Source: Segetibacter aerophilus (GTDB taxonomy: Bacteria; Bacteroidota; Bacteroidia; Chitinophagales; Chitinophagaceae). From it: 64,000 nucleotides of DNA. Location: the NCBI RefSeq assembly GCF_007991655.1, contig NZ_BJYT01000001.1:186001-250000 (forward strand), written 5' to 3'. The notes below the pieces were generated by a model. That model did not search any database and had not been told where the DNA came from. It saw only the letters and a list, made by a program, of their open reading frames with translations. The position numbers and the translations under genes are program-made. Shown here piece by piece: positions 8,110 through 56,678 of the stretch. Numbering within the stretch: the first letter of the stretch is position 1; every line of letters begins with the position of its first letter.

Positions 8110-8146
8110 TTGCGTCGCACTCTTGTACACTTCTTGTTTACTCAGC
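8110..8146 (-). repeat. Dispersed dyad repeat, copy 1 (subtype A)
   Basis: On the minus strand the core (8110-8128) reads GTACAAGAGTGCGACGCAA, which is the reference sequence for the family. The distal end CTCAGC at 8141-8146 marks the full 37-bp unit. It sits between two minus-strand genes. Confidence 0.8.
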
Positions 8147-8253
8147 TATTAATCGCCCAGCGCTTTACAAGCTTAAACAGAAGTTTACATTGAACCAATG
8201 ATTCAAATCGTTGTATTATTCCTTCACCAGACCAAACCGTTTTACTACAAAAA

Positions 8254-9306
8254 CTATTGGTAAACTATTTTTCCAATCTTTCCTTTCTCGCCTGCAAGAA
8301 ATACTTGTTTTCCTTTGCTTACCATACAAACATTAAAACTTTCCAAGCTGGCTTTTTTCCACTCTTTCTGACCGTTCTCGGCATAATCTACTCCGGTGGG
8401 ACCGCACGCAACAAGCGTTTTATCTTTTATAATCCGAACGCAACTCCTATACCCTAAGGGTGGCCCGACGGAAGGGGATCCCCATTTGTTGCCTGCGTCA
8501 GTAGTGTAGAAATAGTTGTCGAAATAATCCTTGGGTACCTTATAATCTCCACCAATACAGTAGATCGTTTTTTGTTTATCTGTAGCCATTGAAAACGTGC
8601 CTGCAGTTTCCTTTCCCTGCAGCAGCGGCGTGGCAACAACCTTACTTTTTTTACCCGGCCGCCCTATCATATACAAATTTGAAACTGTTCCACCTGTAAC
8701 AAAGGCAAACTCAAAATCAGGGTTGTCTAAAAAGGAAATGTTTGTACCACTTGCAGAAAAAATTGCTTCGCCCGTTTGTGCCGGAGGCATCTGGTACATA
8801 GGTGCTTCCTTCCATGTTTCGCCGCCGTCAAAAGTTCTTATGATATAAAACAGTCTTCGATTGACACCTCCAAGATTTAAAGGGTCGCCTATACAGATGC
8901 CTTCCTTTTCATTTTTAAAATCCATTGGGTCGAGAAACATTCCCTCCATTGCACGTTCAAACACCTTTTTCCACGTCAATCCACCATCAATTGTTTTTAC
9001 TATATAGGCAGGATTATCAACCGCCATTGCAATGGCAGTACTACTGTCAAAAGCGTCGATATCTCTAAAATCCTTTTTCTCAAAGCCCGGTACTACCATC
9101 CACTTCCATGTAGCGCCTGCATCTACAGATCTGCCAATTGTGCCATTGCTGCCACTAACCCAAATTACTTGGTCAGAAGGTATGCTCATGCCGCGTAAAC
9201 TTGTGTTTGTTCCTGTCGTTAGTACCTGTACTCCCACACTTTTTTGAGCAATTATGGTAGAACTAAAAAAGGCGAAAAAAAAGAAAAGAATAATGGACAT
9301 CCTCAT
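8254..9306 (-). CDS. Exported Ycf48/BNR-like beta-propeller protein
   Basis: I prefer the ATG at 9304-9306 (MRMSIILFFFF...), because it places a clean signal peptide at the N-terminus (cut near IIAQ); an in-frame ATG at 9372 adds 22 residues. The mature part has BNR/Ycf48-like repeats such as GRSVDAGATWKW, VKTIDGGLTWKKV, RTFDGGETWKEA and YTTDAGNKWG, spaced as in sialidase- or photosystem-assembly-type propellers. Such proteins are common in Bacteroidota as exported or surface binding domains. No catalytic residues are apparent, so sialidase activity is not implied. It is flanked by terminator-like hairpins upstream and by repeat copy 1 downstream. Confidence 0.82.
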   Translation of the reverse strand: MRMSIILFFFFAFFSSTIIAQKSVGVQVLTTGTNTSLRGMSIPSDQVIWVSGSNGTIGRSVDAGATWKWMVVPGFEKKDFRDIDAFDSSTAIAMAVDNPAYIVKTIDGGLTWKKVFERAMEGMFLDPMDFKNEKEGICIGDPLNLGGVNRRLFYIIRTFDGGETWKEAPMYQMPPAQTGEAIFSASGTNISFLDNPDFEFAFVTGGTVSNLYMIGRPGKKSKVVATPLLQGKETAGTFSMATDKQKTIYCIGGDYKVPKDYFDNYFYTTDAGNKWGSPSVGPPLGYRSCVRIIKDKTLVACGPTGVDYAENGQKEWKKASLESFNVCMVSKGKQVFLAGEKGKIGKIVYQ

Positions 9307-9401
9307 AAAAGCAATTTGAGTAAAATTAGTTGATGCAGGTTTTAGTAAACGTTCTTTGTACCCTAAAAACATTCATTCCGTTTAAAAGGTGTAAAATAAA
9401 A

Positions 9402-9428
9402 AGAGGCCGTCATTTTACTGACGAGCCT
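9402..9428 (-). terminator. Hairpin in the spacer upstream of the propeller gene
   Basis: GAGGC-CGTCA and TGACG-A-GCCTC form a stem with one bulged A. It lies between the propeller gene and the PAS/HTH gene and is flanked by A/T runs on both sides, so direction is uncertain. It may be a second terminator for the PAS/HTH transcript. Confidence 0.45.
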
Positions 9429-9536
9429 CAAAAAATACCCCCCAAAGTTTAATAGCGTATTAAAATAAAATCGTGTGTTCGATCAAAGTTGCATTAGCTG
9501 CAGAGTGGATGAAATTCCGTGATATAGAAAGAAGAA

Positions 9537-9558
9537 GTTGTCACCCTTGGGTGACAAC
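9537..9558 (-). terminator. Intrinsic terminator after the PAS/HTH regulator
   Basis: GTTGTCACCC (9537-9546) and GGGTGACAAC (9549-9558) are perfectly complementary. On the minus strand the stem is followed by TTCTTCTTTCT. It lies about 12 bases past the regulator's stop codon. Confidence 0.7.
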
Positions 9559-9569
9559 GATAAAATATT

Positions 9570-10382
9570 TTACAATAATCCTTCTTTTTTTAAATAAAGC
9601 GCTGCGTCAACTGTGTTGTCAAAGTCATGGTGAAAGAAGTCTCTCGCCTTTTTGAGAAAACGGCTGTAGTACTGGTGAAGATCGTCTATTGGTATATCTA
9701 GTAAGTCTGCCAATTGCTTTTGCTTGATGCCTGGTTCGTATGCAATTTTTCTTGCTACCTGCATTTCCTTAGGGGAGAATACTTTTAGTTTTAGAAAATG
9801 TTCAACAGCTCTCTGCAAGATTTCTCCACCTCTCTCATCAGTCTCCCCGGTTGCTGTGAAAAACTTGGGACCAAGAGGTTCGCCATTATATTCGTCGCTA
9901 ATAATGGTGAACTCATGCAGGCAAGCAGTAAGCCTGTTATTAATGTCGTATTGAAAAACGGAAGAAATTTTATTGGCTAACACATAATGTCCCTTATAAT
10001 GCTTCAAAGCTATAAGGCTGCTATATCTCTGCACCATAAAGTTGAGCGCGTACTTGCCAATGCAGAGCGTATTGTACAAATGCAAAGCAATCATTTGAAC
10101 AGCCTTTCGCCTGCCAGGATGAATAATGTCAAGATACTTTTTCATTGAAAAATCTCTTTCACTATAGCCCAACCATCTTTCAATCCCGTACGGCTGTTCT
10201 ATTTCGTAGTGTTCAAGATTTGTAATAAAAAAGAAGCGACGGCTGCCAATAGTTTCTTTTAAAGAAGCAATTTCTTTTTGCTGTTGCTCTATAGAAACGG
10301 CGTATTGTATCGGTTGAGGAGGAATAAGAGATAAGACGTGAGATTTAAAGACAGGGTAATCGAATGTAATATTCGTCTTCAT
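9570..10382 (-). CDS. PAS-like sensor with C-terminal helix-turn-helix (LuxR-like) regulator
   Basis: This 270-aa protein has no leader. Residues ~45-180 look like a PAS-type sensor (FFITNLEHYEIEQ...GYSERDF...DIIHPGRR...FQYDINNRLT). Residues ~208-250 form a helix-turn-helix resembling the LuxR/GerE class (FSPKEMQVARKIAYEPGIKQKQLADLL). The normal [LF]TxRExEVL motif is loosely kept as FSPKEMQV. PAS-LuxR regulators of this size are frequent in Bacteroidota. The gene is divergent from parE across a 472-bp region with strong inverted repeats, and a terminator follows it. Ligand and targets are unknown. Confidence 0.7.
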   Translation of the reverse strand: MKTNITFDYPVFKSHVLSLIPPQPIQYAVSIEQQQKEIASLKETIGSRRFFFITNLEHYEIEQPYGIERWLGYSERDFSMKKYLDIIHPGRRKAVQMIALHLYNTLCIGKYALNFMVQRYSSLIALKHYKGHYVLANKISSVFQYDINNRLTACLHEFTIISDEYNGEPLGPKFFTATGETDERGGEILQRAVEHFLKLKVFSPKEMQVARKIAYEPGIKQKQLADLLDIPIDDLHQYYSRFLKKARDFFHHDFDNTVDAALYLKKEGLL

Positions 10383-10635
10383 AATCTTCAGCTGGGTTTA
10401 GGTTGGTAAGGTTAGATTGAAAGCTAGTCCTCGTGGTAAATATCTGAATATTTACAATATTTCGTCGATAAATTTTAAACTTAAAATTGTGGCTGATAAG
10501 TAAATATTTAAAGGGGCTACGCAAACAAAACAGGAGCCGTGAAAAATTTATCTGTTACCGCGCCTCCTATAAATTTTTTGCACAAAAAACTGCCAATTGT
10601 TAAAAAACAAAAATTTTATAGGCTCCGTTACAAAT

Positions 10636-10643
10636 TATATTTG
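10636..10643 (+). promoter_or_regulatory. Possible -7 box for parE
   Basis: TATATTTG is an exact match to TAnnTTTG. If used, it gives parE a leader of about 200 nt that would contain repeat copy 2. No -33 TTG is found at normal spacing, so this is tentative. Confidence 0.4.
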
Positions 10644-10725
10644 CGTGTTAGTCCTTTCAGAAATAATGGGAAGATGGCTGATTTTGATGGGAAGTAACAG
10701 CAGTAATTTGAAGGACACACGCCTT

Positions 10726-10762
10726 GATGATTAAAAAGTAAAAGTACAAGTGAGTGACACAA
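10726..10762 (+). repeat. Dispersed dyad repeat, copy 2 (subtype B)
   Basis: The core GTACAAGTGAGTGACACAA is at 10744-10762, and a GATGA end lies 37 bp from the far side. It is 92 bases upstream of the parE ATG. Confidence 0.8.
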
Positions 10763-10854
10763 CGAGTGTTGATAGGAGTTGGAAAGTTGGTCACGAAAAA
10801 CAGTTTATGCTTTTGATAGTATTGAGCAATTAATAACAACGACGTAAACAAGAA

Positions 10855-12807
10855 ATGGCAGAGAAAATACAACAAGGGGATTATAACGAAGACAGTATAC
10901 GTAGCCTTGATTGGCGCGAGCACATCCGTTTGCGGCCTGGAATGTACATTGGTAAATTAGGCGACGGCAGCAGTCCCGATGATGGCATTTATGTAATGAT
11001 AAAGGAGGTGATAGATAATTGCATCGATGAGCACACAATGGGCTACGGAAAAAACGTGGAGCTAACAATTGCTGAAAAATCAGTAACCGTAAGAGACTTC
11101 GGTCGTGGAATTCCCTTGGGTAAAGTGGTAGATGTAGTGAGTAAAATAAATACGGGGGCTAAATATGATAGTAAAGCGTTTCAGAAAAGTGTAGGCTTAA
11201 ACGGGGTCGGTACGAAGGCGGTAAACGCATTAAGCACATATTTTAAAGTAACAGCTTTTCGTGACGGCCGGCAGAAAACGGCCGAGTTTCAAAACGGTGT
11301 TTTGCTAAAAGAGTCGAAGGAAAAAGACACCACAGAGCCAAATGGAACCTTAGTGACGTTTACTCCGGACGAGACCATTTTCAAGAATTATCATTTCATC
11401 AATGATTATATCGAAAACCAATTGTGGAACTATTGCTACCTGAACGCAGGACTTGTAATTAACTATAACGGCAAAAAATATGTAAGTAAAAATGGTTTGC
11501 TCGATTTGTTGCAACGACGCACGAATGCGGATGAAATTCGTTACCCGATAATGCACTTAAAAGGCGAGGATGTTGAGATCGCAATAACCCATAACAATGA
11601 TTACGGTGAAGACTTGTACTCTTTTGTGAACGGGCAATACACGACCCAGGGAGGAACTCATCAGCAAGCATTTAGAGAGGCATTTGTAAAAGTTGTGCGT
11701 GACTTTTACAAGAAAGACTACGAAGCAGCAGATATACGGGGAAGCATTTGCGCCGCCATTTCCATTCGTGTGCAGGAACCTGTTTTTGAGAGCCAGACCA
11801 AGACTAAGTTGGGTTCATTAACTGTCTATGATGGTGGTCCGACCATGCGGAATTTTATGGTTGATTTTCTTAATAAAGAGCTGGACAATTACCTGCATAA
11901 AAACCCTCAAACTGCTGATGCATTAAGGAAGCGTATAGAGCAAAGCGAGCGGGAACGAAAAGAACTGGCAGGGATAAAAAAGCTGGCCAACGAGAGGGCT
12001 AAGAAAGCAAACCTGCACAACAAAAAGTTGCGTGATTGCAAGTTTCATTACAACGACGAAGCTGAAGGAAGAAATAAGGAGGAGATTATAGAGAAGCGAA
12101 ATCAAACCACCGTTTTCATTACCGAAGGAGACAGCGCAAGTGGCTCAATTACAAAAAGCAGGAGAGTAGATACACAGGCTGTTTTTAGCTTGCGTGGAAA
12201 GCCTTTGAATTGCTATGGACTTACAAAGAAGGTGGTATATGAGAACGAAGAATTCAACTTGCTGCAACACGCTCTAAACATAGAGGACGGGCTTGAAGGA
12301 TTGCGGTACAATAACATTGTACTAGCTACCGATGCCGACGTTGATGGAATGCACATTCGCCTGCTGATGCTTACATTCTTTTTACAGTTCTTTCCTGATC
12401 TTGTTAAGAATGGACATCTGCATATTCTAGAAACGCCACTCTTTAGAGTGCGAAATAAGAAGCAAACGATCTACTGCTACAACGAAACTGAGAAACAGGA
12501 AGCCATTAAAAAATTAGGAGAGAAGCCTGAGATTACAAGATTTAAAGGGTTGGGTGAAATAAGCCCTGAAGAGTTTGCCCGGTTTATTGGAGACGATATA
12601 AAACTGCAGCCGGTAATGTTGTTGCCGGAAACACATATTCAACAATTGCTCGAATATTATATGGGCAAGAACACGATGCAGCGTCAGGAATTTATCATTG
12701 ACAATCTTAAGATTGAATTAGACCTTACAGAAGATGTAGAGCATGATATTGAAGAGGCAAAAGTCGAAGCTGTAGCAGAACATATTTCTGAAGAAGTGGC
12801 TGCTTGA
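10855..12807 (+). CDS. parE: DNA topoisomerase IV subunit B (ATPase)
   Basis: This 650-aa type IIA topoisomerase ATPase subunit has a GHKL ATP site (EVIDNCIDE, then DFGRGIP and [14 protein letters not shown]). The Toprim motifs EGDSASG and [10 protein letters not shown] coordinate Mg2+. The C-terminal [12 protein letters not shown] block is also present. ParE rather than GyrB is favoured because the partner subunit encoded at 15667 is ParC-like and because the length (about 650 aa) fits Bacteroidota ParE. It decatenates chromosomes with ParC. The 3-kb separation from parC by three unrelated genes on the same strand may still be one transcription unit. Confidence 0.93.
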
Positions 12808-12953
12808 TAAGCAGGACCTTTAAGCTTTTAGTAGTCGTTTTAATATTCATAACTTTTGATTGGGCCGTGTTAAGATTGCCTTTTGAAAGAACCTCAGTTT
12901 TTCATGCCATTGCTGATTATGAAGCCAGCTTTTATACTGCTATCTTGCTTTAA

Positions 12954-12972
12954 TTGCGTTACACACTTCTAG
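12954..12972 (-). repeat. Degenerate copy of the dispersed dyad repeat
   Basis: TTGCGTTACACACTTCTAG matches the subtype A core at about 14 of 19 positions. The dyad is broken, and no clear distal CAGC end is present. It may be a decayed copy or chance. Confidence 0.3.
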
Positions 12973-13052
12973 TGCTGAAAGTCATGGACAAAAGCTTGGC
13001 AAAGCTTTGAACAATTATTAATAAAGATTTAAAAAACACCATAGTTTCTGGT

Positions 13053-15666: not shown

Positions 15667-18177
15667 ATGACGACAGAAACAGCAAACGAACTAACTAACA
15701 ATGAAAGTGGCGTAACCGGGCAGTATAAAAACTGGTTCCTCGACTATGCATCTTATGTGATTCTTGAGAGAGCTGTGCCGGCTATCGAAGACGGGTTTAA
15801 GCCAGTGCAACGCCGTATTCTTCATGCAATGAAGGAGATGGATGACGGCCGCTTTAACAAAGTAGCCAACATCATCGGGCAGAGCATGCAGTACCATCCG
15901 CACGGTGATGCTTCCATTGGGGATGCTCTGGTGAACATGGGCCAGAAAGAGTTGCTGATCGAAACCCAGGGTAATTGGGGGGATGTAAGAACGGGCGATG
16001 CTGCCGCTGCACCGAGATACATAGAAGCAAGACTCAGCAAGTTTGCTTTAGATGTTGCGTTCAATAACAAAACGACTGAATGGCAACTTAGCTACGACGG
16101 AAGAAAGAATGAGCCGGTAACGTTGCCAATGAAATTCCCGATGCTGCTTGCACAGGGAGCAGATGGTATTGCTGTCGGACTTTCTACGAAAATTCTACCT
16201 CATAATTTCTGTGAGCTGATTGAGGCGTCTATAAAATATCTGCGCGGTAAAACTTTTACGATCTATCCTGACTTTCAAACCGGAGGAATGATAGATGTCT
16301 CCAATTACAACGAAGGTAAGCGGGGAGGAAAAGTAAGGGTCAGGGCCAAGATTGATGAGTTGGATAAAAAGACACTCGTCATTCACGACGTGCCCTATGG
16401 TGTGACCGTTTCTACCTTATGTGACAGCATTGTAAAAGCGAATGATGCCGGCAAGATTAAGATTAGAAAGGTAACCGACGCTACTGCCGCTGCAGTTGAA
16501 ATTATTATTGACCTCGCTGCTGGTATTTCACCTGATATCACCATTGATGCCTTGTATGCTTTTACAGATTGTGAAGTAAGTATTTCGCCTAATGCCTGTG
16601 TAATAGTTGATCAGAAGCCGCACTTTCTAACGGTACAGGACCTACTGAAAATATCAGCCGACAATACAAAGACTCTGCTTCAAAAAGAGCTTCAGATAAA
16701 GCTTGGAGAGTTGCAGGAGAAATGGCATTATACTTCTCTCGAAAAAATCTTCTTCGAAGAGAAGATTTATAAGGAACTGGAAAAGAAACATGAAACATGG
16801 GAGAAGGTGTTAGCAGCTATTGAAAAAGCTTTTGTTCCGTATGCAATAAAACTGCGAAGAAGTGTTACAAGGGAAGATGTACTGAAGCTTACAGAAAAAC
16901 CTGTGCGGCGCATCTACCGGTTAGACATAGATGAGTTGAACGCACAGATAAAAGGTATCGAGGGCGAGATCGACCAGGTGCAATATAACCTCGAGCATCT
17001 TACCGATTATGCGGTGGCGTACTATGAAGGTTTATTGAAGAAATACGGAAAAGGCCGTGAAAGAAAAACGGAGATCAGGCAGTTCGATGTAATTACTGCA
17101 AGGTCTGTGGCCATAGCCAACACGAAAGTTTACATGAACAGGGCGGAAGGATTCGTTGGCCTCGGTCTAAAAAAAGATGAGCTGATAGCAGAGTGTAGCG
17201 AATTAGACGACATCATTGTTTTTACTAAGGCTGGCAAGATGAAAGTGGTAAGGGTTTCAGACAAAGTTTTTATTGGTAAAGACATTATTCATGCAGCTGT
17301 ATTTCAAAAGAACGACGAACGTACTACGTACAACGTTATTTATGTAGATGGTGCAAGTGGGGTAAGTTTTGCCAAGCGTTTTAATGTCACCGGTATAACC
17401 CGCGATAAAGAATATGACCTTACAAAAGGCTCCGAAAAAAGCAGGGTTCATTATTTTTCCGCTAACCACAATGGCGAAGCTGAAGTAGTCAAAATCATAC
17501 TAAGTCCAAACAGTGCGGCCAAGAAGAAAGAGTTTGATTTTTATTTTGAGGAGCTTGATATTAAAGGTCGCGGCAGCATGGGCAACCAGGTTACCAAACA
17601 TCCCATTAAAACAGTTAGGTTTAAGGAGGCAGGCAGAAGCACTTTAACGGGAAGAAAGCTGTGGTTTGATAGTAAGTTTGGTCGACTGAATAACGAAGAA
17701 AAAGGTGAGTACCTGGGAACGTTTGAGGAGGAAAAGCTCTTGGTAATCTATGACGATGGTAATTATGAGATCACTGATACTGAGCTTACCCAAAGATTTG
17801 AACCGGAGAAGATTTTACTGATTGAAAAATTCAAGCCTGAAAAGGCAATAACTGCCGTTTATCTTGATTCAGAAAAAGGGCAGTATAACATTAAAAGGTT
17901 TAAGATCGAAACCACTTCGATTAAAACAAAATTCTTATTTATAAAAGAAGGTAAAGGAAACCGGCTTGAAGCTGTGACCTCCGATGAAGAGCCTGTATTG
18001 TTGCTGCACAACCGTATTGGTGCGCAGGCATCAACTCAAAAAATACAGATTGCAGGTTTCGTTGAAATAATGGGTTGGAAAGCTATTGGCAATAAGCTGG
18101 TCAACTATTCAAAAGATGTAGAAATGGAATGGGAAACCAAAGCCGAGGAAGGTGATGTGCAGACTAAGTTATTTTAA
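15667..18177 (+). CDS. parC: DNA topoisomerase IV subunit A
   Basis: This 836-aa DNA-cleaving subunit of a type IIA topoisomerase has the expected N-terminal blocks YASYVILERAVP, GFKPVQRRIL and YHPHGDASIGDALV, and the catalytic tyrosine is Y118 in AAPRYIEARL. The C-terminal third is a degenerate beta-pinwheel. No GyrA-box (QRRGGKG) is visible, which favours ParC over GyrA. The protein acts with ParE (gene at 10855) on chromosome decatenation. The VOC gene precedes it by 15 bases. Downstream, an inverted pair of subtype C repeats may form the 3' end of the message. Confidence 0.93.
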   Translation: MTTETANELTNNESGVTGQYKNWFLDYASYVILERAVPAIEDGFKPVQRRILHAMKEMDDGRFNKVANIIGQSMQYHPHGDASIGDALVNMGQKELLIETQGNWGDVRTGDAAAAPRYIEARLSKFALDVAFNNKTTEWQLSYDGRKNEPVTLPMKFPMLLAQGADGIAVGLSTKILPHNFCELIEASIKYLRGKTFTIYPDFQTGGMIDVSNYNEGKRGGKVRVRAKIDELDKKTLVIHDVPYGVTVSTLCDSIVKANDAGKIKIRKVTDATAAAVEIIIDLAAGISPDITIDALYAFTDCEVSISPNACVIVDQKPHFLTVQDLLKISADNTKTLLQKELQIKLGELQEKWHYTSLEKIFFEEKIYKELEKKHETWEKVLAAIEKAFVPYAIKLRRSVTREDVLKLTEKPVRRIYRLDIDELNAQIKGIEGEIDQVQYNLEHLTDYAVAYYEGLLKKYGKGRERKTEIRQFDVITARSVAIANTKVYMNRAEGFVGLGLKKDELIAECSELDDIIVFTKAGKMKVVRVSDKVFIGKDIIHAAVFQKNDERTTYNVIYVDGASGVSFAKRFNVTGITRDKEYDLTKGSEKSRVHYFSANHNGEAEVVKIILSPNSAAKKKEFDFYFEELDIKGRGSMGNQVTKHPIKTVRFKEAGRSTLTGRKLWFDSKFGRLNNEEKGEYLGTFEEEKLLVIYDDGNYEITDTELTQRFEPEKILLIEKFKPEKAITAVYLDSEKGQYNIKRFKIETTSIKTKFLFIKEGKGNRLEAVTSDEEPVLLLHNRIGAQASTQKIQIAGFVEIMGWKAIGNKLVNYSKDVEMEWETKAEEGDVQTKLF

Positions 18178-18213
18178 ATTGTAGCAAGCAGTTGTTACTA
18201 AATGCGTCTTTAG

Positions 18214-18252
18214 TTGCGACGCTCCGTTTTGACTTTATTATCTGTATTCAGC
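18214..18252 (-). repeat. Dispersed dyad repeat, copy 3 (subtype C)
   Basis: TTGCGACGCTCCGTTTT at 18214-18230 with a TTCAGC end at 18247-18252 matches the family's 37-39 bp layout. It is inverted relative to copy 4. Confidence 0.65.
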
Positions 18253-18289
18253 GAGTGGCGCTAAGAAAGTCGATTGCAACTTTACCGCC

Positions 18290-18306
18290 AGAACGGAGCG
18301 TCGCAA
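18290..18306 (+). repeat. Dispersed dyad repeat, copy 4 (subtype C core)
   Basis: AGAACGGAGCGTCGCAA is complementary to copy 3 except at one position. In RNA the two would form a 17-bp stem around a 59-nt loop just after parC. The far-end motif is not clear. Confidence 0.6.
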
Positions 18307-18362
18307 GAAAAGAACGATAAAGAATTAAAGCTGGCCAACTGGGACTTCAAAAGCAAGCACTA

Positions 18363-25313: not shown

Positions 25314-25388
25314 GCAATTGCTGGATTCGAGAAAATATCAGTCGAAGCATTTTTTTTGATACCAACTGACCAACTTTACTTAACATCT

Positions 25389-25426
25389 TTGTGTCACTCG
25401 CTTGTACTGGTTTACCTATTTTCGGC
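25389..25426 (-). repeat. Dispersed dyad repeat, copy 5 (subtype B)
   Basis: On the plus strand it reads TTGTGTCACTCGCTTGTAC (25389-25407) with a TCGGC end at 25422-25426, giving 38 bp. It sits in the purS-rsmI spacer. Confidence 0.8.
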
Positions 25427-35149: not shown

Positions 35150-35198
35150 TGTTTCATTGATACTATGTACCCGGCTTTATACTTCTATGTTACTTCCG

Positions 35199-35235
35199 TT
35201 GCGTCGCACCCTTTTACTTTATAGCCAATATCAGC
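35199..35235 (-). repeat. Dispersed dyad repeat, copy 6 (subtype A)
   Basis: On the plus strand TTGCGTCGCACCCTTTTAC (35199-35217), ending TCAGC at 35231-35235, 37 bp in total. Confidence 0.75.
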
Positions 35236-35661
35236 AAGAACCCCAAAGTGAAATAGCAACCAGCCATTCACTTTTGAAGTTATATATTTTGATAAACCTC
35301 GAAGGCTTTATTCATCATTCGGAACATCCAATAACGGCGCAAGGATGGGCACATTTACTCTCTATCTCATTGGCAAGCTAAAGTAATTTGTAGCTAGCCC
35401 ATCTTCAGGCGAATGCTGCAAACCTCAGAAACAACGCGGCAAACCGGAAAAAGAGTAGGAATTGGCCTAGCGTTTTTAACGCCAGGTTCAGGAGTTCGTT
35501 CACGGTTTCGAAACAATACCAATCATTTTCTCCCTTTGGCAAAATTGATGCAATTTTTGTTTAAAGCTTTCAATCCAAGTGTGGGCCTGCTTCTATTAAG
35601 CGGAAGCACACTTTGAATGATTTGGATAAAGATTTGTCCTTTTTATAAAATTGTAAAGCCT

Positions 35662-35698
35662 GCTGATTGGGTTACAAAAGTACAAGTGAGTGACACAA
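35662..35698 (+). repeat. Dispersed dyad repeat, copy 7 (subtype B)
   Basis: GCTGA end at 35662 and core GTACAAGTGAGTGACACAA at 35680-35698, 37 bp. The core is identical to copy 2. Confidence 0.8.
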
Positions 35699-35795
35699 CG
35701 ATGTAGCCTGATGATTTACAGCTCGCTAAAAAACCTAGTCACGCTACCCGGCAAAAGCATTTTATTACTTCTCTCCAATAACTTTTCTTTGCGGT

Positions 35796-41431: not shown

Positions 41432-41470
41432 GCTTGAATAGTATTGCGAACGTACAAGAGTGCGACGCAA
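41432..41470 (+). repeat. Dispersed dyad repeat, copy 8 (subtype A)
   Basis: The core GTACAAGAGTGCGACGCAA is at 41452-41470, and GCTTGA begins the unit at 41432. The core is identical to copy 1. Confidence 0.8.
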
Positions 41471-41522
41471 GAGTAGGTCAAATAAGTAAATAAAGTTGGG
41501 CACCTAAAAATTAAATAAAACT

Positions 41523-45971: not shown

Positions 45972-46039
45972 CCATGAAAAACAAATTGGTTATACAATTC
46001 ATTCAAAGTATTGCTGGGTTAACAAGCAGTAATATTACT

Positions 46040-46969
46040 ATGAAGCTTCTGTTGCGACGCTCCGTTCTAACGCAACTTTTCATAGCAGCGGTCGGCTGTT
46101 GTATTAGCCTTACAGCCTGCGAAAAAAACATCGACATTAAGATAGATAACAATGAGCCTTTGCTGGTTGTAGAAGCATATATCAACAACCAGATGCGCGA
46201 CTACAACTATGTCGCACTAAGTCGCAGCCTTGATTACTTTTCAACAGACTTTCAAGGTGCGGCCGTTTCTAACGCCACGGTTACCGTAACTGAAGGTGAA
46301 ATTATCAACCAGCAATATGTTTGGAACCGCTCCAGCAAAGTCCAATTACTTGAAGCCAACATACCTGCTGTACCAGCAAATTTTAGAAAGGGAGTTTATT
46401 TTGATCCGCGCTTGGTTACTAATTCGCAGGGTGCTCTTATTGGGGTACCAGGCAAGAGTTACCTGTTGGAAATCAGCGATGGTCAACAACAGTATACAGC
46501 GACTACCACTTTGCTGCCGCCGCTTCCTATCGATAGTCTTACGGTCGGCTTTTCATATCGCGATACCGATGATAACAACAAATTAAAGGCTCGAATCACC
46601 AACCATTATAAAGACCCGGATACCTTAAATAACACCCAGTTTTATTACTATCGCTTCTCCGAAAACCGAAACAACTTTGGTTGGGGCGGAATATCCAGAA
46701 GCCGGGCATTTGGAGTAGATGATGTAACTAATGGGCAGCAACTGCATTTGACTCATCCGCGCGGATTTGTGGTGGGAGACACGGTCAACTATTATATGGC
46801 AAGCGTGACCAGGGACGTCTATAATTTTTGGGATTCGTATAGCAAAGCCCGAAATAATAACGGTCCGTTTTCAACACCTGTTACCTTGATGAGCAACGTA
46901 AAAGGTGACAATGTCACGGGCTGTTTCACGGGGCTAAGTCTCACTTCTAAGACTGTTATAATCAAGTAA
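46040..46969 (+). CDS. DUF4249 lipoprotein paired with the TonB receptor
   Basis: I prefer the ATG at 46040, giving 309 aa with a basic n-region (MKLLLRRSVL) and lipobox LTAC; the ATG at 45974, two bases after the receptor stop, would add 22 residues before it. The mature part has the DUF4249 pattern: ID-x-NEPLLVVEAYINNQ, VALSRSLDYF, AAVSNATVTV, and YYYRFSENRNNFGWGG. It is the outer-membrane partner of the adjacent receptor. The n- and h-regions of its signal are encoded in part by a subtype C repeat copy (46052-46089). Confidence 0.87.
   Translation: MKLLLRRSVLTQLFIAAVGCCISLTACEKNIDIKIDNNEPLLVVEAYINNQMRDYNYVALSRSLDYFSTDFQGAAVSNATVTVTEGEIINQQYVWNRSSKVQLLEANIPAVPANFRKGVYFDPRLVTNSQGALIGVPGKSYLLEISDGQQQYTATTTLLPPLPIDSLTVGFSYRDTDDNNKLKARITNHYKDPDTLNNTQFYYYRFSENRNNFGWGGISRSRAFGVDDVTNGQQLHLTHPRGFVVGDTVNYYMASVTRDVYNFWDSYSKARNNNGPFSTPVTLMSNVKGDNVTGCFTGLSLTSKTVIIK
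46052..46089 (-). repeat. Dispersed dyad repeat, copy 9 (subtype C), within a CDS
   Basis: TTGCGACGCTCCGTTCT at 46052-46068 with an AGCAGC end at 46084-46089, 38 bp. Its first 11 bases equal those of copy 3. It encodes residues LRRSVL in the lipoprotein signal. Confidence 0.65.
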
Positions 46970-48309: not shown

Positions 48310-48347
48310 GATGAATTAAGAGAAAGAAGTACAAGAGTGCAACGCAA
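48310..48347 (+). repeat. Dispersed dyad repeat, copy 10 (subtype A)
   Basis: The core GTACAAGAGTGCAACGCAA is at 48329-48347. One base in the dyad is changed (GACGC to AACGC), so its symmetry is imperfect. Confidence 0.75.
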
Positions 48348-48448
48348 CGAAAGCTTGATAGAAGTCCTGTCCCTCGGCCCAAAAAAATTTAACTCGTGCT
48401 ATTGAATAAGTTTTTGAGACGTGCAGAAGTATAGGTCTTCAGCTTTTC

Positions 48449-48485
48449 TTGCGTCGCACCCGTTTACATTTTCTCATTACTCAGC
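48449..48485 (-). repeat. Dispersed dyad repeat, copy 11 (subtype A)
   Basis: On the plus strand TTGCGTCGCACCCGTTTAC (48449-48467) with the TCAGC end at 48481-48485. It is inverted to copy 10. Confidence 0.75.
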
Positions 48486-48538
48486 AGAGCCTATATTCCG
48501 TTATTATTTTTTTTGCCTGAAAAAGGTTCAAACAAACG

Positions 48539-51057: not shown

Positions 51058-51065
51058 TACTTTTG
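51058..51065 (+). promoter_or_regulatory. -7 box for iscS
   Basis: TACTTTTG matches TAnnTTTG. It lies 31 bases before the iscS ATG. Confidence 0.5.
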
Positions 51066-51096
51066 CATTAATAAGATTAGAAGAAAATAGAGTACT

Positions 51097-52314
51097 ATGT
51101 TGAAATTACCGGTTTATTTAGATAACAATGCTACGACGCCATGCGATCCCAGAGTAGTCGAGGCGATGATCCCATATTTTACCGAGAACTTCGGAAACGC
51201 TGCAAGCCGTAACCATCCCTTTGGTTGGGCTGCAGAAGAAGCTGTTGACTATGCGCGCGAACAAGTGGCTAAATTAATAGGAGCGGACCCAAAAGAGATC
51301 ATTTTTACAAGTGGTGCAACTGAAGGGGACAATCTCGCTATTAAAGGTGTTTATGAAATGTATGCTAGCAAGGGTAATCACATTATTACAGCAACTACAG
51401 AACATAAGGCTGTACTGGATACTTGCAAGCATATAGAAAAACTAGGCGGTGAGGTGACGTATCTCCAGGTGAAGCGTGATGGTTTAATTGATCTTGCTGA
51501 GCTTGAAGCTGCCATCAAACCAACCACCATCTTAATTTCAATTATGTATGGTAACAACGAAATAGGTGTTGTTCAGCCTGTTCGTGAAATAAGTGCCATT
51601 GCTAAAAGACATGGGGTGTTATTTTTTACTGATGGTGTACAGGCTGTAGGTAAAATTCCTGTAGATGTGATAAAAGACGGTATAGACTTAATGGCTTTTA
51701 CAGCACACAAGATGTATGGCCCTAAAGGTATCGGTGCTTTATATGTTCGACGTAAAAACCCTCGTGTAAAAGTTACTGCGCAGATGGATGGCGGCGGACA
51801 TGAAAGGGGAATGCGAAGCGGTACTTTAAATGTTCCAGGTATTGTTGGTTTTGGTAAAGCAGCCGAACTGGCTCGTCTTGAAATGGACCAGGATGCAAAA
51901 AGATTGAGTGGTCTGAGAGACAAACTTGAAAGCGAATTATTAAAACTGGAAGAGGCCTATGTGAACGGTAATCGTGAGCATCGTCTTCCTCATGTTACCA
52001 ATATTTCCTTTAAGCATGTAGAAGGTGAAGGGTTACTAATGGGCTTCAATAAAAACATTGCTTTAAGCTCAGGTTCGGCTTGTACTTCCGCCTCTCTTGA
52101 ACCAAGTTACGTTTTAAAAGCGTTGGGTTTGGGAGACGATCTGGCACATAGTTCGCTGCGATTTGGATTAGGCAGATTTACAACAGAAGAACAGATAGAC
52201 TATACGATTGAACAAGTAAGTAAAACGGTATTGAAGCTTCGCGAGATGAGCCCTTTGTGGGAGATGTACAAAGAGGGTATTGACCTTAATTCAATTGAGT
52301 GGGCGGCACATTAA
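51097..52314 (+). CDS. iscS: Cysteine desulfurase IscS
   Basis: This 405-aa PLP enzyme has the cofactor lysine K205 ([11 protein letters not shown]) and the persulfide cysteine C329 in [15 protein letters not shown]. The N-terminal [13 protein letters not shown] and HxxxH-type EHKAVL are typical. It removes sulfur from cysteine for iron-sulfur cluster assembly. The iscU gene is 93 bases downstream, and an iscA-type gene follows, so these make up an isc operon. No IscR regulator, HscA/B or ferredoxin gene is next to it. Confidence 0.96.
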
Positions 52315-52407
52315 GTGAACTTTGTGACTGGTGAATTTGTTGAAAGCGTAATTAATAAAAACAATATAAATTCTCAACTTAAACTAGTTGGGGCAAAATA
52401 AAAAGAT

Positions 52408-52827
52408 ATGGCATATTCAGATAAAGTAATAGATCACTATCAAAATCCTAAGAACGTTGGTACTTTGGATAAAGCAAGTAAGAGCGTCGGTACTGGTCTC
52501 GTTGGTGCACCCGAGTGCGGAGACGTTATGCGTCTACAAATAGAAGTTGATGACGAGACAGGTGTAATCAGGGACGCAAAGTTTAAAACTTTCGGTTGTG
52601 GTTCTGCGATCGCATCATCCTCTTTGGCTACAGAATGGTTAAAGGGTAAAACAGTTGACCAGGCTTTGGCTATCGATAACATGGCAATTGTTGAAGAATT
52701 AAATCTTCCTCCTGTTAAGATTCACTGTTCAGTGTTGGCTGAAGATGCTATCAAAGCAGCTATCAATGATTATCGAGTGAAAAATGGCATGGAGCAAATT
52801 AAGTTCGAAGAAAGCATTGTTCACTAA
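52408..52827 (+). CDS. iscU: Fe-S cluster scaffold IscU
   Basis: This 139-aa scaffold has the three ligand cysteines C37 (GAPECGD), C64 (TFGCGSAIASSS) and C107 (KIHCSVLAEDA), plus the LPPVK chaperone-recognition motif (residues 100-104). It builds a 2Fe-2S cluster from IscS sulfur. It sits between iscS and an IscA-type gene. The following 129-base spacer holds a paired hairpin. Confidence 0.95.
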   Translation: MAYSDKVIDHYQNPKNVGTLDKASKSVGTGLVGAPECGDVMRLQIEVDDETGVIRDAKFKTFGCGSAIASSSLATEWLKGKTVDQALAIDNMAIVEELNLPPVKIHCSVLAEDAIKAAINDYRVKNGMEQIKFEESIVH

Positions 52828-52898
52828 GAGACGAAAAAGTGATTAGGTTGCGGCTAGGACCTGTTGAGCAATTGGGAAGATGCATGAATAATATAGTT

Positions 52899-52941
52899 AG
52901 AGCTGAAAGCTTGCGGCTTGGAGCTTCAAGCAAGCAGCTCT
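52899..52941 (+). repeat. Bulged hairpin between iscU and iscA
   Basis: AGAGCT (52899-52904) pairs with AGCTCT (52936-52941) and GCTTGC (52909-52914) pairs with GCAAGC (52930-52935), leaving a 4-nt bulge and a 15-nt loop. No U-run follows, so it is unlikely to be a plain terminator. Confidence 0.55.
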
Positions 52942-52956
52942 TAAAAAAGCTGGTGT

Positions 52957-53286
52957 ATGATTTACGTAAGTGATAAGGCAAAAGTTAAGGTTGACAACCT
53001 GATGAGAGATGCCGAAATAAAAGGAGATGATTATTTTCTCAGAGTTTCAGTGGTTGGTGGAGGCTGTTCGGGATTAAGTTATAAACTTGATTTTGACAAC
53101 GAAAAGAAGCCAATGGACCAGGAGTTTGAAGATAATGGAGTGAAGGTGGTTACTGATTTAAAAAGTTTTTTGTACCTGGTAAATACGACGCTTGATTTTT
53201 CTGATGGATTGAACGGGAAAGGATTTTATTTCAGCAATCCTAATGCAAGTCGAAGTTGTGGATGCGGAGAAAGTTTCGCGGTATAA
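52957..53286 (+). CDS. iscA: IscA/HesB-type Fe-S assembly protein
   Basis: This 109-aa A-type carrier has the cysteine ligands C37 (GGGCSGLSY), C101 and C103 (SCGCGESF). The rest follows the family (FLYLVNTTLDFSDGLNGKGFYFSNPNAS). It receives or delivers clusters to target apoproteins. It is the third gene of the isc operon, separated from iscU by a hairpin spacer. A terminator follows at 53312-53333. Confidence 0.93.
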   Translation: MIYVSDKAKVKVDNLMRDAEIKGDDYFLRVSVVGGGCSGLSYKLDFDNEKKPMDQEFEDNGVKVVTDLKSFLYLVNTTLDFSDGLNGKGFYFSNPNASRSCGCGESFAV

Positions 53287-53311
53287 ATGCAAATAATATT
53301 ATTGTAAAAAG

Positions 53312-53333
53312 AGCCGGCACTTAAATGTCGGCT
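53312..53333 (+). terminator. Intrinsic terminator after iscA
   Basis: AGCCGGCA (53312-53319) pairs with TGTCGGCT (53326-53333), with one G-U pair, followed by TTTTTGTTTTTT. Confidence 0.85.
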
Positions 53334-53377
53334 TTTTGTTTTTTGCCAGCACGCGTGCTGATTTAACCAAAAAAATA

Positions 53378-53398
53378 AACCCTGCAAAGAGCAGGGTT
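53378..53398. terminator. Second hairpin downstream of iscA
   Basis: AACCCTGC and GCAGGGTT form a perfect 8-bp stem with an AAAGA loop. It could act on the minus strand, where an A/T run follows, but no minus-strand gene precedes it. Confidence 0.4.
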
Positions 53399-53669
53399 AT
53401 AGCAGTTTGGTTTTGAGTGCCAGCTAAGCGCTCCTAAGTAAGCAGATAGTTTTGGTTGCAAAACAATAAAAAAACCGTAAAAACTAAACCTAATACAACT
53501 ACTTGAGACATGGGCATTTTATATACTGCTGCACAAGGTTTGAAAGATTCTAGGCATTTAATGGATTTTTAATAAAAGCGACAAAATTTAGTCAAAACGG
53601 AAATTCTAAATACGTCTCGCTAGTGCGTGTTTTATTTTCTTTAATTTGCCGGCAAATAATAAGATAAAA

Positions 53670-53897
53670 ATGGCAACTACTAAAATTACAGTTAATAACA
53701 ACGGATCTCTAAGAGTAGAAGGTGATTTTGAGATTGTTGATAAAAACGGGAATGTATACGATCTTAATGGACGTGAACTTGTATCAATCTGCCGGTGCGG
53801 CCTTTCCATGAATAAACCATTTTGCGATGGTTCTCATAAGGGACATTTCGAACATGATGCAGTTGCTTTTGCACTTCCTCCAAAGAAAACATTGTAG
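53670..53897 (+). CDS. CDGSH iron-sulfur domain protein
   Basis: I start it at the ATG at 53670, giving 75 aa; a TTG at 53646 overlaps the presumed -7 region. The CDGSH motif is C41-x-C43-x8-C52-x3-H56 (CRCGLSMNKPFCDGSH). The C-terminal GHFEHDAVAFALP is typical. These proteins carry a labile 2Fe-2S cluster with one histidine ligand. The bacterial role is unclear, perhaps in redox or iron sensing. It lies close to the isc genes, which is a sensible place for it. A terminator follows at 53953-53977. Confidence 0.92.
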   Translation: MATTKITVNNNGSLRVEGDFEIVDKNGNVYDLNGRELVSICRCGLSMNKPFCDGSHKGHFEHDAVAFALPPKKTL

Positions 53898-53952
53898 GAT
53901 TTACGGCAATGTAACTGCCATAACTAATCGTTAAACCACTTCTGTTCGTAAA

Positions 53953-53977
53953 AATGCCAGCTCTTAAAGCTGGTATT
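53953..53977 (+). terminator. Intrinsic terminator after the CDGSH gene
   Basis: AATGCCAGCT (53953-53962) pairs with AGCTGGTATT (53968-53977) with one G-U pair, followed by TTTATTATA. Confidence 0.8.
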
Positions 53978-54045
53978 TTTATTATATATAAAGCTTTTAA
54001 GGAGGAAGAGGAGAAGCGAGGTTGGCAGTAATCGATAAACTTCAT

Positions 54046-55041
54046 TTATTTTGTATTTCTTTCTACTCTAAACTTACCAATGGCTTCATAAGCTGCTTTA
54101 CGGGCGCGGTTAATCCCCCCTAAAGGTTGATTTTCTTTGTGGCAGTGCCACGGCGAATAAGTAAGATTTTCGCCAAGAGTGTTTACTTCAGGTGTATCAA
54201 ATTCCTGTTTTAGTATTTCGATCGTGGCCACTTTGTGCCAGGGCGATTTCCATTCTACACAGACATCTTCCATTGGCATCTTTACAGGATCTTCCTGAAG
54301 CTGAATTTTAAAGTCATAATAAACAGAGCCGGCAGACAGGTCCTGCTTCATTCGGTTGCGCAGAAAATTCTTGTCCTTCAGATCAGTTGCAGGCTCAAGG
54401 TTTTCTGTAGCAGGGAACGCCCCATACTTAACTGCTTGGTCAGGTTTCCCTAATCTAAACGGGCTTACGCTGTAATATTTCAACGAAAACATGTTACGGG
54501 TTTTTTTCTGACTTTGTAGTGTACGATAAAGGGTCATCCAGTTTATAGGATTGAGGGCAAACAAAACGAGTCCCATCGTTCCATTACATACGGCCCGCAC
54601 ATTTCTCACTACATCCTTTACGTTAGGAGACATGAGAATAGGATAACTTACCATTAGGAAGTCCTGCGATTGAGGAAACCAGTGATCTTGAACAAGCATC
54701 TCGCCTGGAACATCTAAAAGTTTAATTGCCATCCCCCGCAAATCTGGCTTCTTGTCGTCAACCACTGTAACACTACCATTAGAAATACGTATCCATGCGT
54801 CGTAACTTTTGCCAGGAACGAGAAAGCCATATTGATAATTTTTCGGAAGATCTGGCAGAACAGTAAAAGTTGCTTTGACGCAGCCATGCATTTTTGCGTG
54901 AAACTGTCTCAAGGTTTTTCCCGGAGGGAAGTCGCGGTTGAGCCTTTTAATTACGATATCAATTATCTTTTGTGTGTCTTGTTCTTCATTCGGTTCGAAA
55001 TACTCTTTTCCAATTTCAAGCATTTGTGATTTTACAGACAT
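54046..55041 (-). CDS. Catalase-family heme protein (short form)
   Basis: This 331-aa protein has catalase-fold landmarks. The distal His is H48 in FHAKMHGCVKATF. The RGFA-like block is DLRGMAIKL. The proximal heme tyrosine is probably Y318, in an R-x3-Y context (R314-KAA-Y318) after SPWH. At 331 aa it is far shorter than true catalases (~480), and fits the small catalase-like or allene-oxide-synthase-like group that rearranges peroxides. No signal peptide is present. It is the last gene of the redox block and overlaps the DyP gene by 10 bases, so it is translationally coupled. Confidence 0.78.
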   Translation of the reverse strand: MSVKSQMLEIGKEYFEPNEEQDTQKIIDIVIKRLNRDFPPGKTLRQFHAKMHGCVKATFTVLPDLPKNYQYGFLVPGKSYDAWIRISNGSVTVVDDKKPDLRGMAIKLLDVPGEMLVQDHWFPQSQDFLMVSYPILMSPNVKDVVRNVRAVCNGTMGLVLFALNPINWMTLYRTLQSQKKTRNMFSLKYYSVSPFRLGKPDQAVKYGAFPATENLEPATDLKDKNFLRNRMKQDLSAGSVYYDFKIQLQEDPVKMPMEDVCVEWKSPWHKVATIEILKQEFDTPEVNTLGENLTYSPWHCHKENQPLGGINRARKAAYEAIGKFRVERNTK

Positions 55042-56456
55042 GATAAGTATTTAAGTGCTCTGATGCCGGGCATGAAAAAATAAGCTCCACCTTTTACTGT
55101 TACAAATTCAGGAACGTCGGTGAACCTTTTTCGAAGGGTTTTGTCGGGAATGGTAAAAGTGCCCGTTGTTTTGTGGTCAGAAGGGTAATGGTGATTTCCA
55201 ATTATAGGATCGCGCTCATCGTGAAGGCCATTGAACTTTGGATTATTAACCCAGGCATTTTGAATAAATTCAAATTGCCGCCCGAGATCAGCATTAAAAC
55301 AGATGAAATGCAGTCCCCGCTCTCCCTGGATATCTTTTACCTGTAGGATATCCTGTGGTTTCATTTCTTCCGTTACTGGTTGCCCGTACGACCGACCTCG
55401 CCGTAGAATGCGATGTTTGTTCGCTACTTTCATGGAAGCCAGGCGATCCATATCCAAAGCGTCACGTGGGTGTGATCTTCTTATATGTGATGCAAAAGGG
55501 CAACGGAGGCCTAGCTCATCTACTGAACGATAGTCAAACTTATTGTCGTTGTTGTGGTCTTTAATCTCCTCGTCAGGACATACAATTACTGGTGCTCCCC
55601 CTGGCCAACGGCCAACCATTTTCGCAGCCAGTTTTACCATCTCTTTAGCATCACTTTCGCCATTTTCTTTTTGCGTGCTTTTTTGCATGTAGTTCCAAAA
55701 CAGTTCCACGTCCTGCTTCAGTTGCCTGAATACCATATAACTTCCATTCTTGCCCAAGTCATATTTTCCCAGCTTTGCCTTTGATGGAGGCAGGCATTCT
55801 GCAGCGTCTTTGTCGCCGGCAGTTGGGGTAGGCGTGTATTGGTTGTATTCATTCTTATAACCTAAAATAAATTCTCCCGTTGAAACCATGTTTTCAGGTT
55901 CGTCTTGCCTGCTCAGACCTTTAATAGTCGGCTGTGATATTCCGTCTTGGAAACCGAAGTGCTCTTTTCGTTCGTAAAGAACGCTAGTGTCTAATTTTGT
56001 TACTTCAGATAATCCATATCGTCCCAACTGTGCAATGTGTTTATCCTGCAGATTTTGTAATGCTCCCGCATCAGTCGCATAAAGCATTAATAAAATGTGC
56101 ACCTCATCAGTATTCTTGCCGCCCCATTCCCAATTGTCTGGTGCACTTTCTCCAAAATCGCCTAAAAAAAGCTGTTTGTGTTTGGTTATCATTCCATCTT
56201 CAAATTCAAGAGGGAACGTGTCAAGAACTTGCTTATTTAAACCGAGCGCTGCCATTGCATTAAAGGTCAAAGCAATATTTAATGCAAGCTCCGGTTTTCT
56301 TTCTTCACCGGAGGTGATTTCAGGAGATACAACATGGAGCCATTTCTTAGCCAAAGTAGGATCGCTTATTCGAAGCAACAGGAACGCAGCCGCGGGAAGG
56401 TTTGAATAACCTCGTATAATGATGCCCTGAATATCTTTAAGTTCCAAGATTTCCAT
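55032..56456 (-). CDS. DyP-type heme peroxidase
   Basis: This 474-aa protein keeps the DyP hallmark GxxDG as GFQDG (D171) and the proximal heme His H324 in CPFASHIRRSHPR. LRRGRSYG further on probably holds the distal arginine. No Tat leader is seen, so it is probably cytosolic or encapsulated; no encapsulin gene is adjacent. It is longer than the ~300-aa B-type enzymes. It overlaps the catalase-like gene downstream by 10 bases and is separated from the duplicated-domain gene upstream by a 280-bp spacer with two repeats. Confidence 0.88.
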   Translation of the reverse strand: MEILELKDIQGIIIRGYSNLPAAAFLLLRISDPTLAKKWLHVVSPEITSGEERKPELALNIALTFNAMAALGLNKQVLDTFPLEFEDGMITKHKQLFLGDFGESAPDNWEWGGKNTDEVHILLMLYATDAGALQNLQDKHIAQLGRYGLSEVTKLDTSVLYERKEHFGFQDGISQPTIKGLSRQDEPENMVSTGEFILGYKNEYNQYTPTPTAGDKDAAECLPPSKAKLGKYDLGKNGSYMVFRQLKQDVELFWNYMQKSTQKENGESDAKEMVKLAAKMVGRWPGGAPVIVCPDEEIKDHNNDNKFDYRSVDELGLRCPFASHIRRSHPRDALDMDRLASMKVANKHRILRRGRSYGQPVTEEMKPQDILQVKDIQGERGLHFICFNADLGRQFEFIQNAWVNNPKFNGLHDERDPIIGNHHYPSDHKTTGTFTIPDKTLRKRFTDVPEFVTVKGGAYFFMPGIRALKYLSCL

Positions 56457-56514
56457 ACTGTTTTATCTTAAAGTTTTTAGGTTGGATTTACTTTCAACGA
56501 TTTTTGCATGATTT

Positions 56515-56552
56515 GCTGAATAACGAAAAATCTGTTCACGAGTGCGACGCAA
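56515..56552 (+). repeat. Dispersed dyad repeat, copy 12 (subtype A)
   Basis: GCTGA at 56515 and core GTTCACGAGTGCGACGCAA at 56534-56552. The dyad is intact, while the outer GTACAAG part is changed. Confidence 0.7.
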
Positions 56553-56640
56553 CAATGTTGTAAGTAGCACGGCAGGTATGGCTCAAAAATTATTGTTTTT
56601 TATTATGTTTGGCCAGCTTCAAACGTTCTTTTAGGCATTG

Positions 56641-56678
56641 TTGTGTCACTCACTTGTGCTCCCGCCTCTTTATTCCGC
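56641..56678 (-). repeat. Dispersed dyad repeat, copy 13 (subtype B)
   Basis: On the plus strand TTGTGTCACTCACTTGTGC (56641-56659), ending TCCGC at 56674-56678. It is inverted to copy 12, and the CAACAATG flank of copy 12 is complementary to its own flank. Confidence 0.72.

Follow-up and report, generated by a model that had tools for sequence, protein, structure and literature searches.

A short dispersed repeat with a symmetric core in Chitinophagaceae, possibly spread as A/B dimers

We analysed a short repeat that is dispersed over a 64,000-nt stretch of the Segetibacter aerophilus genome (the window; contig NZ_BJYT01000001.1, positions 186,001 to 250,000, or C1:186001-250000 in our numbering of this 5.89 Mb genome, G000). 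With a probability of roughly 0.5, it is a short, non-autonomous dispersed element of Chitinophagaceae that resembles hairpin-forming doublets of repetitive extragenic palindromes (REPs), known as REPINs, and bacterial interspersed mosaic elements (BIMEs), lacking both a hairpin in the monomer and a REP-associated tyrosine transposase (RAYT). The most economical account, to which we give the same even odds, is that the element spread in bursts as dimers of an A-type and a B-type core, with the core doubling as a putative protein site. Whole-dimer copying, A/B heterodimers, outward-pointing pairs, bursts, intergenic bias, conservation of the core in place, covariation and copies in phages all speak for this account.

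Copy number and distribution

A position-weight scan of 1.635 Mb of the genome, from which matches under 13 bits were dropped, detected 233 copies, or one per 7 kb, which extrapolates to ~840. Contig C1 contained 119 of them (five below 20 bits, three of these subtype C), with none above threshold in reversed and shuffled controls. Across the whole genome, the A core was matched 360 times at up to three mismatches (two for the reversed control) and the B core 303 times at up to two mismatches (none for the control); the A and B counts may overlap. The window itself held the same 13 copies that the original prediction had called clear (subtypes A, six; B, four; C, three), while the degenerate one reported at 12954 proved to be a decayed copy. 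Six matches to the subtype A core were found there at up to three mismatches, against 0.02 expected.

A search of the complete genome and of relatives, as had been proposed, extended the family far beyond the window. The exact pattern occurred in 146 of 294 Chitinophagaceae genomes and in 70 of 101 sampled genera (reversed control, 0-2 per genome). Counts jumped within genera: 434, 5, and 0 in genus g41, 115 and 0 in g4, and 517 and 1137 in g74. Elsewhere in the order, three of 131 genomes from other families had one match each, none with the canonical core. Named matches among 80 of at least 105 stretches came from Segetibacter, Ferruginibacter, Limnovirga, and Chitinophagaceae or Bacteroidetes bins. 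Since the named loci were selected by an exact B-type match, their subtype counts are tilted to B. For the copy-rich genomes G001 and G166, we considered the first 100 listed places of 840 and 1137, respectively.

Samples of 40-103 kb from each of the low-copy genomes G008, G010, G011, and G012 yielded no copy above 13 bits, the best match scoring 9.4 bits in G011. A variant dialect of the repeat in these four genomes was rejected, as no similar frequent motif was present in the samples; the other repeats found there and in G004 look unrelated to the element. Several copies of a separate palindromic repeat around CAGTCGCTCGCCTCCGGCGAGTGAC occur in the zero-copy relative G011 (L320, L321). At seven loci viewed in low-copy genomes, copies lay beside ordinary metabolic or cell-wall genes.

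Phages carry the element as well. The A-type pattern matched 12 stretches from 11 contigs in IMG/VR, some of which also carry B-type cores; the exact B-type pattern with CGATG had no match in that database. Three of the stretches have open reading frame (ORF) lists suggestive of tailed phages (portal, capsid, tail sheath, tape measure, and primase-helicase, assigned by reading), and the copies lie between ORFs. In phage stretches L339 (about 4597-4660) and L333 (about 6050-6100), the stop codon of the upstream ORF falls inside the left arm of the element, e.g., GCT GAA TAG. A search of plasmids with a 77-nt consensus gave no match, and Rfam gave none above gathering score in the window, L373, L374, L376, or L350. 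The original prediction knew of no named family with this consensus, and our searches of the open-access literature likewise returned REP and REPIN papers with no description of this repeat; four 11-letter core strings did have matches there, in 11 papers, none on bacteria by title.

Copies were almost confined to intergenic DNA. Two of the 233 lay inside genes as called by our own ORF caller, one being copy 9 of the window, and 195 lay in gaps shorter than 800 bp. The gap statistics below use these 195. The other 36 lay in gaps of at least 800 bp or at contig ends, and for those at contig ends location inside genes was not assessed.

Repeat unit and symmetric core

The repeat unit was ~76 bp long, made up of a left arm, a 19-bp core and a right arm; the 37-39 bp first proposed was too short. 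Counting the base that follows the core as column 0, conserved letters extended from about -38 to +38 in the 233 copies. The left arm is GCTGAATA-like with variable spacing. GTACAAG occupies columns -19 to -13, the core continues as N-G-N-GYGACRC-AA to end at -1, and CGATG or CAAAG follows at 0 to 4. The right arm is looser, with TTGAATAG..., a GCTGG-like motif and an A-run near +33. By eye, A-rich stretches are spaced by about one helical turn, and a GCT-AATAG motif, clearest in the phage copies, is common to both arms.

The core contains a 7-bp dyad, GYGACRC, in which Y and R are matched. The column pair -8/-4 was T..A in 122 copies, C..G in 103 and something else in eight, and its mutual information was 0.848 bits against at most 0.10 in column shuffles. 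The pairs -9/-3 and -7/-5 were nearly fixed as G..C (231/233 and 230/233). The covarying halves claimed for the repeat were confirmed at -8/-4, the sole strongly varying pair of the dyad. Because column shuffles keep relatedness, two old lineages could yield part of this covariation; mixed combinations with -4 were, however, much more common at position -10, two bases from -8, where 39 copies had one, than at -8 itself. The avoidance of mixed -8/-4 pairs goes beyond what simple additive binding accounts for. All three proposed subtypes were recovered, with the correction that subtype C carries the 7-mer in the opposite direction. Neither a lack of covariation above chance nor a confinement of copies to the window, which the original prediction had named as arguing against it, was seen.

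Single copies folded no better than mononucleotide shuffles (mean z -0.45 and -0.15 by strand; 40 sampled of 226), and the 5-13 bp hairpin stem of REPs was not present in the sampled single units by this test. Without a stem, the single unit also offers no place for the unpaired GTAG or CGTC tag that REPs carry at one end of theirs; CGTC does occur as letters within the A core. As the dyad is centred on one base, it could not close a hairpin by itself. This centre and the unfolded single copies together point to double-stranded DNA read by a symmetric protein, and a protein site fits better than a single-copy hairpin. Of the two forms of selection on symmetry initially considered, a protein site or a hairpin, the hairpin of a single copy fits less well, and the selection on symmetry itself is supported by the covariation and by the core identity in orthologs described below.

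Dimers as copied units in genus g74

In genus g74, 30 sampled copies of G166 (1137 copies on one contig) had 17 outward pairs around them, 14 of which were A/B against 7.9 expected. When four sets were pooled, outward pairs closer than 300 bp were A/B in 41 of 62 cases (24.4 expected, p-value 2e-5). Three G166 dimers had one variant core in common and almost identical 24-bp spacers, and one G166 dimer matched a non-orthologous place in G084 with 83% identity over ~143 bp. Locus L401 holds a half-decayed dimer in which the spacer and the B core are intact and the A core is ruined. The same outward ends, stopping ~43 bp from the core centre, were seen in 14 tight A/B dimers, although a number of these sit in tandem paralogues and are not independent. 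From the shared spacers, the match between G166 and G084, L401 and the common ends, we conclude that in g74 the dimer is the copied unit, that A and B are its ends and that a single copy can be a remnant. Six tight G166 dimers folded (z -1.7 to -7.1), forming doublet hairpins as REPINs do. Copying of an inverted doublet together with its spacer was seen in g74 only.

Some spacers between outward pairs (L174, L190, L191, L196, and others) contain a second repeat, CGTCATTGCGAGGA...GAAGCAATC, frequently as an inverted pair; we take it to resemble CGTC-type REPs.

Conservation between Segetibacter species

We compared G000 with G006, taken as Segetibacter RYN_277, in aligned blocks that were mostly 74-88% identical; copies at rearranged places (one in G000, two in G006) were set aside. 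A same-orientation copy was present in the orthologous G006 gap for 17 of 18 testable G000 copies. Identity was computed for 12 of the 17 ortholog pairs, those with interval lengths differing by 60 bp or more being omitted. It reached 96.5% in the core (139/144), 95.2% in GTACAAG and 82% in CGATG, and fell to 59% and 54% in the arms and to 41-42% beyond them. None of the 12 pairs showed an in-place double change at -8/-4. The core identity of 96.5% against ~41% in the outer flanks, together with the covariation in 233 copies, supports selection on the symmetric core.

Two of the copies absent from G000 had decayed in place, the first through loss of a single base in the core and the second through substitutions; the remaining differences between the genomes were whole-gap length changes. 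Singles were as intact as members of pairs among copies above the scan threshold, to which these counts are restricted. In G000, 89% of the 195 singles and 89% of the 38 pair members had a perfect inner 13 bp; in G006, the shares were 90% of 42 singles and 100% of 12 pair members (p-value 0.28). Detected singlets were thus no more decayed than doublets, unlike the singlets of REPINs. A link of rearrangement breakpoints to copies was checked at the seven synteny breaks between the two genomes. At four of the five short breaks, one genome or both carried a copy in the gap or no more than 250 bp away, and the two long unaligned stretches held copies; these numbers are too small to carry an argument.

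A rival view takes the copies as simple sites for a nucleoid or global DNA-binding protein, evolving in place and immobile, with dimers being no more than neighbouring sites. The core kept between species, the intact singles, the covarying dyad pair and the A-runs about one helical turn apart (by eye) all agree with such sites. The column values, however, sum to ~46 bits when columns are treated as independent, far above the ~14 bits needed to specify 840 sites; copy numbers range from 0 to 434 inside one genus; and whole dimers with their spacer are homologous at different places. We regard immobile binding sites as unlikely, though they are the best of the alternatives.

Orientation of neighbouring copies

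Neighbouring copies followed an orientation rule. All 25 neighbour pairs closer than 1 kb in G000 had opposite orientation, 16 of the 19 closer than 300 bp pointed outward, and overall the outward arrangement was seen in 45 of 54 close pairs. Relative to random placement between genes, same-orientation pairs in G000 were strongly depleted below 3 kb (six against 75.8 expected), less so at 3-4 kb (12 against 16.9) and not at 4-6 kb (36 against 34.8). Opposite pairs numbered 64 below 3 kb (76.3 expected), with six at 0.3-1 kb (18.1 expected) and 39 at 1-3 kb (33.7 expected). Other sets, which share some genomes, showed the same tendency: 24 same and 89 opposite below 3 kb in the 105 named loci (14 and 22 at 2-3 kb), 4 and 19 below 3 kb in G006, and 3 and 22 below 2 kb among the first 100 listed places of G001 (7 and 6 at 2-3 kb; contigs with a single listed copy yield no pair and were left out).

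Same-strand pairs were in excess at one distance in G166, with 11 at 2.5-2.7 kb against 2.4 expected. Four of these belonged to tandem arrays of permease-like genes; the six others fetched showed no such arrays. Two arrays (C1:251500-258500 and 289000-296000; L373 and L374) consist of tandem genes for permease-like proteins of ~800 aa with an outward element pair in each gap, so that copies on one strand recur every 2.6 kb. Loss of direct repeats through their homology was considered as a cause of the shortage of same-orientation pairs and found no support, as unlike cores made up 17 of 34 close direct pairs and 74 of 122 at 4-8 kb.

The same rule raises a wider reading, in which the repeat would be a polar chromosomal site. 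A dimer-bound core would act one-sidedly over 2-3 kb, in uptake, resection control or fork handling. Within that range, another site of like orientation would be useless and lost, opposite sites would be independent, and phages would carry sites to profit from the host machinery. We hold this reading to be doubtful. A related one, uptake-like or Chi-like polar sites that spread by molecular drive and each serve one side for 2-3 kb, seems slightly more doubtful again. DNA uptake sequences of Neisseriaceae and Pasteurellaceae occur in hundreds of copies with a near-invariant core, several dialects and spacing effects, and are short and frequent in genes. The depletion of same-orientation pairs below 3 kb, the opposite pairs at expectation at 1-3 kb, the tendency shared by the partly overlapping sets, the kept core amid diverged flanks and the dialect-like variants would all suit such sites. 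Opposite pairs are also short at 0.3-1 kb, however, and the shortage of same-orientation pairs is gone or weak at 2-3 kb in the named loci and G001. Unlike DNA uptake sequences, which are common in coding sequence, the element is ~76 bp long and almost absent from genes, and its dimers were copied whole in g74.

A and B as possible transposon ends

The A and B cores might instead be the left and right terminal repeats of a DDE-type transposon, the dimers a miniature inverted-repeat transposable element and the singles remnants that have lost one half and are not selected. This could account for the outward A/B dimers, whose similar ends reach a shared boundary ~43 bp from the core centre, for the bursts within genera and for the half-decayed dimer L401. 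Against it stand singles whose core, where detected, is as intact as that of pairs and is kept between species; nor was a target duplication noticed by eye in 15 dimers. We consider it rather improbable, below the polar sites.

Transposase candidates

A classical REP or REPIN moved by a RAYT (Y1 transposase), the partner suggested by the original prediction, was tested in 39 genomes and in 16 chosen for high, low or no copy number, and was rejected as the driver. Matches to PF01797 (Y1) did not track copy numbers: there were none in G166, in G050 (119 copies) or in G007 (70 copies), five in G129 (no copies) and seven in G008 (three copies). Of 30 Y1 loci fetched, 28 had no copy and two had one each. 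High copy number, intergenic location, inverted doublets, absence of direct doublets and the folding of tight dimers are all shared with RAYT-driven repeats; even so, the monomer does not fold, and the Y1 counts largely refute this explanation, which is very improbable.

One copy lies ~480 bp from a Y1 match in G022 (C70:67162-68002), a genome with 12 exact-pattern copies; this is probably chance. At L329 (G004 C1:900001-920000, about 3750-5220), other short repeats, TTGGCTAAAGCCAA and GAAAGGCGAGGCAA, adjoin a Y1 match, as REPs do beside RAYTs.

Gap type and transcription

A transcription terminator or other RNA-level element is the least likely explanation of all: counts in gaps of 90-800 bp speak for it (98 convergent gaps with 39 copies, 448 tandem gaps with 132 and 151 divergent gaps with 24), but per-gap rates were alike on C1 without the size filter (17 in 95, 78 in 394 and 23 in 95), tandem gaps showed no clear orientation preference (59 copies in gene orientation, 73 opposite), there was neither a fold nor an Rfam match, and in G016 a copy sits between mraY- and murD-like genes (named by reading).

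Proposed mechanism and its weak points

Our preferred reading, a REPIN/BIME-like element spread as A/B dimers, combines the following steps. The monomer consists of the left arm, the 19-bp core with its 7-bp dyad and the right arm ending in the A-run. In g74, the unit copied to new places is the outward dimer, in most cases an A and a B core separated by a short spacer, and in one case the A core of a dimer has decayed and left a single. In Segetibacter, the core stays intact between species as the surrounding DNA decays. A host-encoded dimeric DNA-binding protein may read the dyad, and this use would keep the cores intact; we propose that the core is kept because it also serves as a putative protein site. 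A transposase or recombinase may have moved the dimers in bursts, with phages aiding the spread. Same-orientation neighbours may be missing because direct repeats recombine and are lost, or because a directional function of the bound site makes them redundant.

Several observations weigh against this reading. Copying is not visible in Segetibacter, since the flanks of the 119 C1 copies lack recent homology (mean identity 0.29 and 0.33, maximum ~0.58). Conservation in place is weaker in the reverse direction, with 17 of 24 G006 copies present in G000 (one of the seven absent being a doubtful low-scoring match), and no clean empty site was seen in comparing G000 with G006, where copies came or went by whole-gap indels or by point decay. 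Outward pairs in the named loci were B/B in 10 of 24 cases and A/B in 13. The search by eye for a target-site duplication, which had no success, counts here too. A neutral mobile element should not preserve the core of singles, although the intactness of singles is partly a detection effect, as the threshold hides strongly decayed copies. Finally, no transposase or binding protein was found, PF01797 being the single family searched.

Copies in the window

The coordinates of the window copies are given in Table 1. For copies on the forward strand, the starts first reported precede the core by 18-20 bp and fall within the left arm (core start 10744 for reported 10726, and 41452 for 41432); the exception is 18290, where the core spans 18288-18306.

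Table 1. Repeat copies in the 64,000-nt window (positions count from its first letter)
Copy	Subtype	Unit	Strand	Core	Remarks
1	A	8072..8147	-	8110-8128	Core identical in the ortholog at locus L223 (Segetibacter RYN_277)
2	B	10725..10800	+	10744-10762	Ortholog in L223 with identical core
Decayed copy		12954..12972	-		Under scan threshold
3	C	18176..18251	-	18214-18232	Outward pair with copy 4
4	C	18269..18344	+	18288-18306	Outward pair with copy 3
5	B	25351..25426	-	25389-25407	
6	A	35161..35236	-	35199-35217	
7	B	35661..35736	+	35680-35698	
8	A	41433..41508	+	41452-41470	
9	C	46014..46089	-	46052-46070	Overlaps start of ORF 45974-46969 (+)
10	A, one core change	48310..48385	+	48329-48347	Inward pair with copy 11
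11	A	48411..48486	-	48449-48467	Inward pair with copy 10
12	A	56515..56590	+	56534-56552	Inward A/B pair with copy 13
13	B	56603..56678	-	56641-56659	Inward A/B pair with copy 12

Copy 9 overlaps an in-frame ATG that would begin a lipoprotein-like signal peptide, MKLLLRRSVLTQLFIAAVGCCISLTACEKN (region 46040-46141, +); the gene start of this lipoprotein-like ORF may have been supplied by the repeat copy.

Comparison with known repeats and implications

The closest known systems are the REP-derived ones. According to PMC3116915, REPIN doublets are thought to be moved by RAYTs, with singlets as their decayed remnants. Going by PMC3116915 and PMC2817692, the element has in common with REPIN/RAYT doublets its high copy number outside genes, inverted doublets with the spacer as the copied unit, and singles derived from doublets. 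It differs from them in its unfolded monomer, in having no RAYT in the richest genome, in detected singles as intact as doublets, in the shortage of same-orientation pairs up to 2-3 kb and in outward A/B heterodimers. A survey of GTAG/CGTC REPs (PMC3733652) describes direct, head-to-tail dimers as absent or rare and heterodimers as often prevailing, both of which hold for the element. CGTC families without a known transposase, also described there, are a further parallel, while the REPs of the survey have 5-13 bp stems and an unpaired tag and the element has neither stem nor tag. Enterobacterial BIMEs, as summarised in PMC2817692, bind IHF, gyrase, and Pol I. The element is similar to what is described there as a mosaic of alternately oriented units serving as protein sites, protein binding being a proposal in our case, and it differs in sequence and taxonomic range.

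Dyad selection, conservation in place, A/B pairing and the orientation rule could all be read from sequence alone. They make the element a testable case of a short dispersed repeat that is kept and spread without a RAYT, the standard explanation, and they predict a DNA-binding protein of Chitinophagaceae for the core. If the polar-site reading were true, the repeat would represent a new class of site in about half of the sampled genomes of the family.

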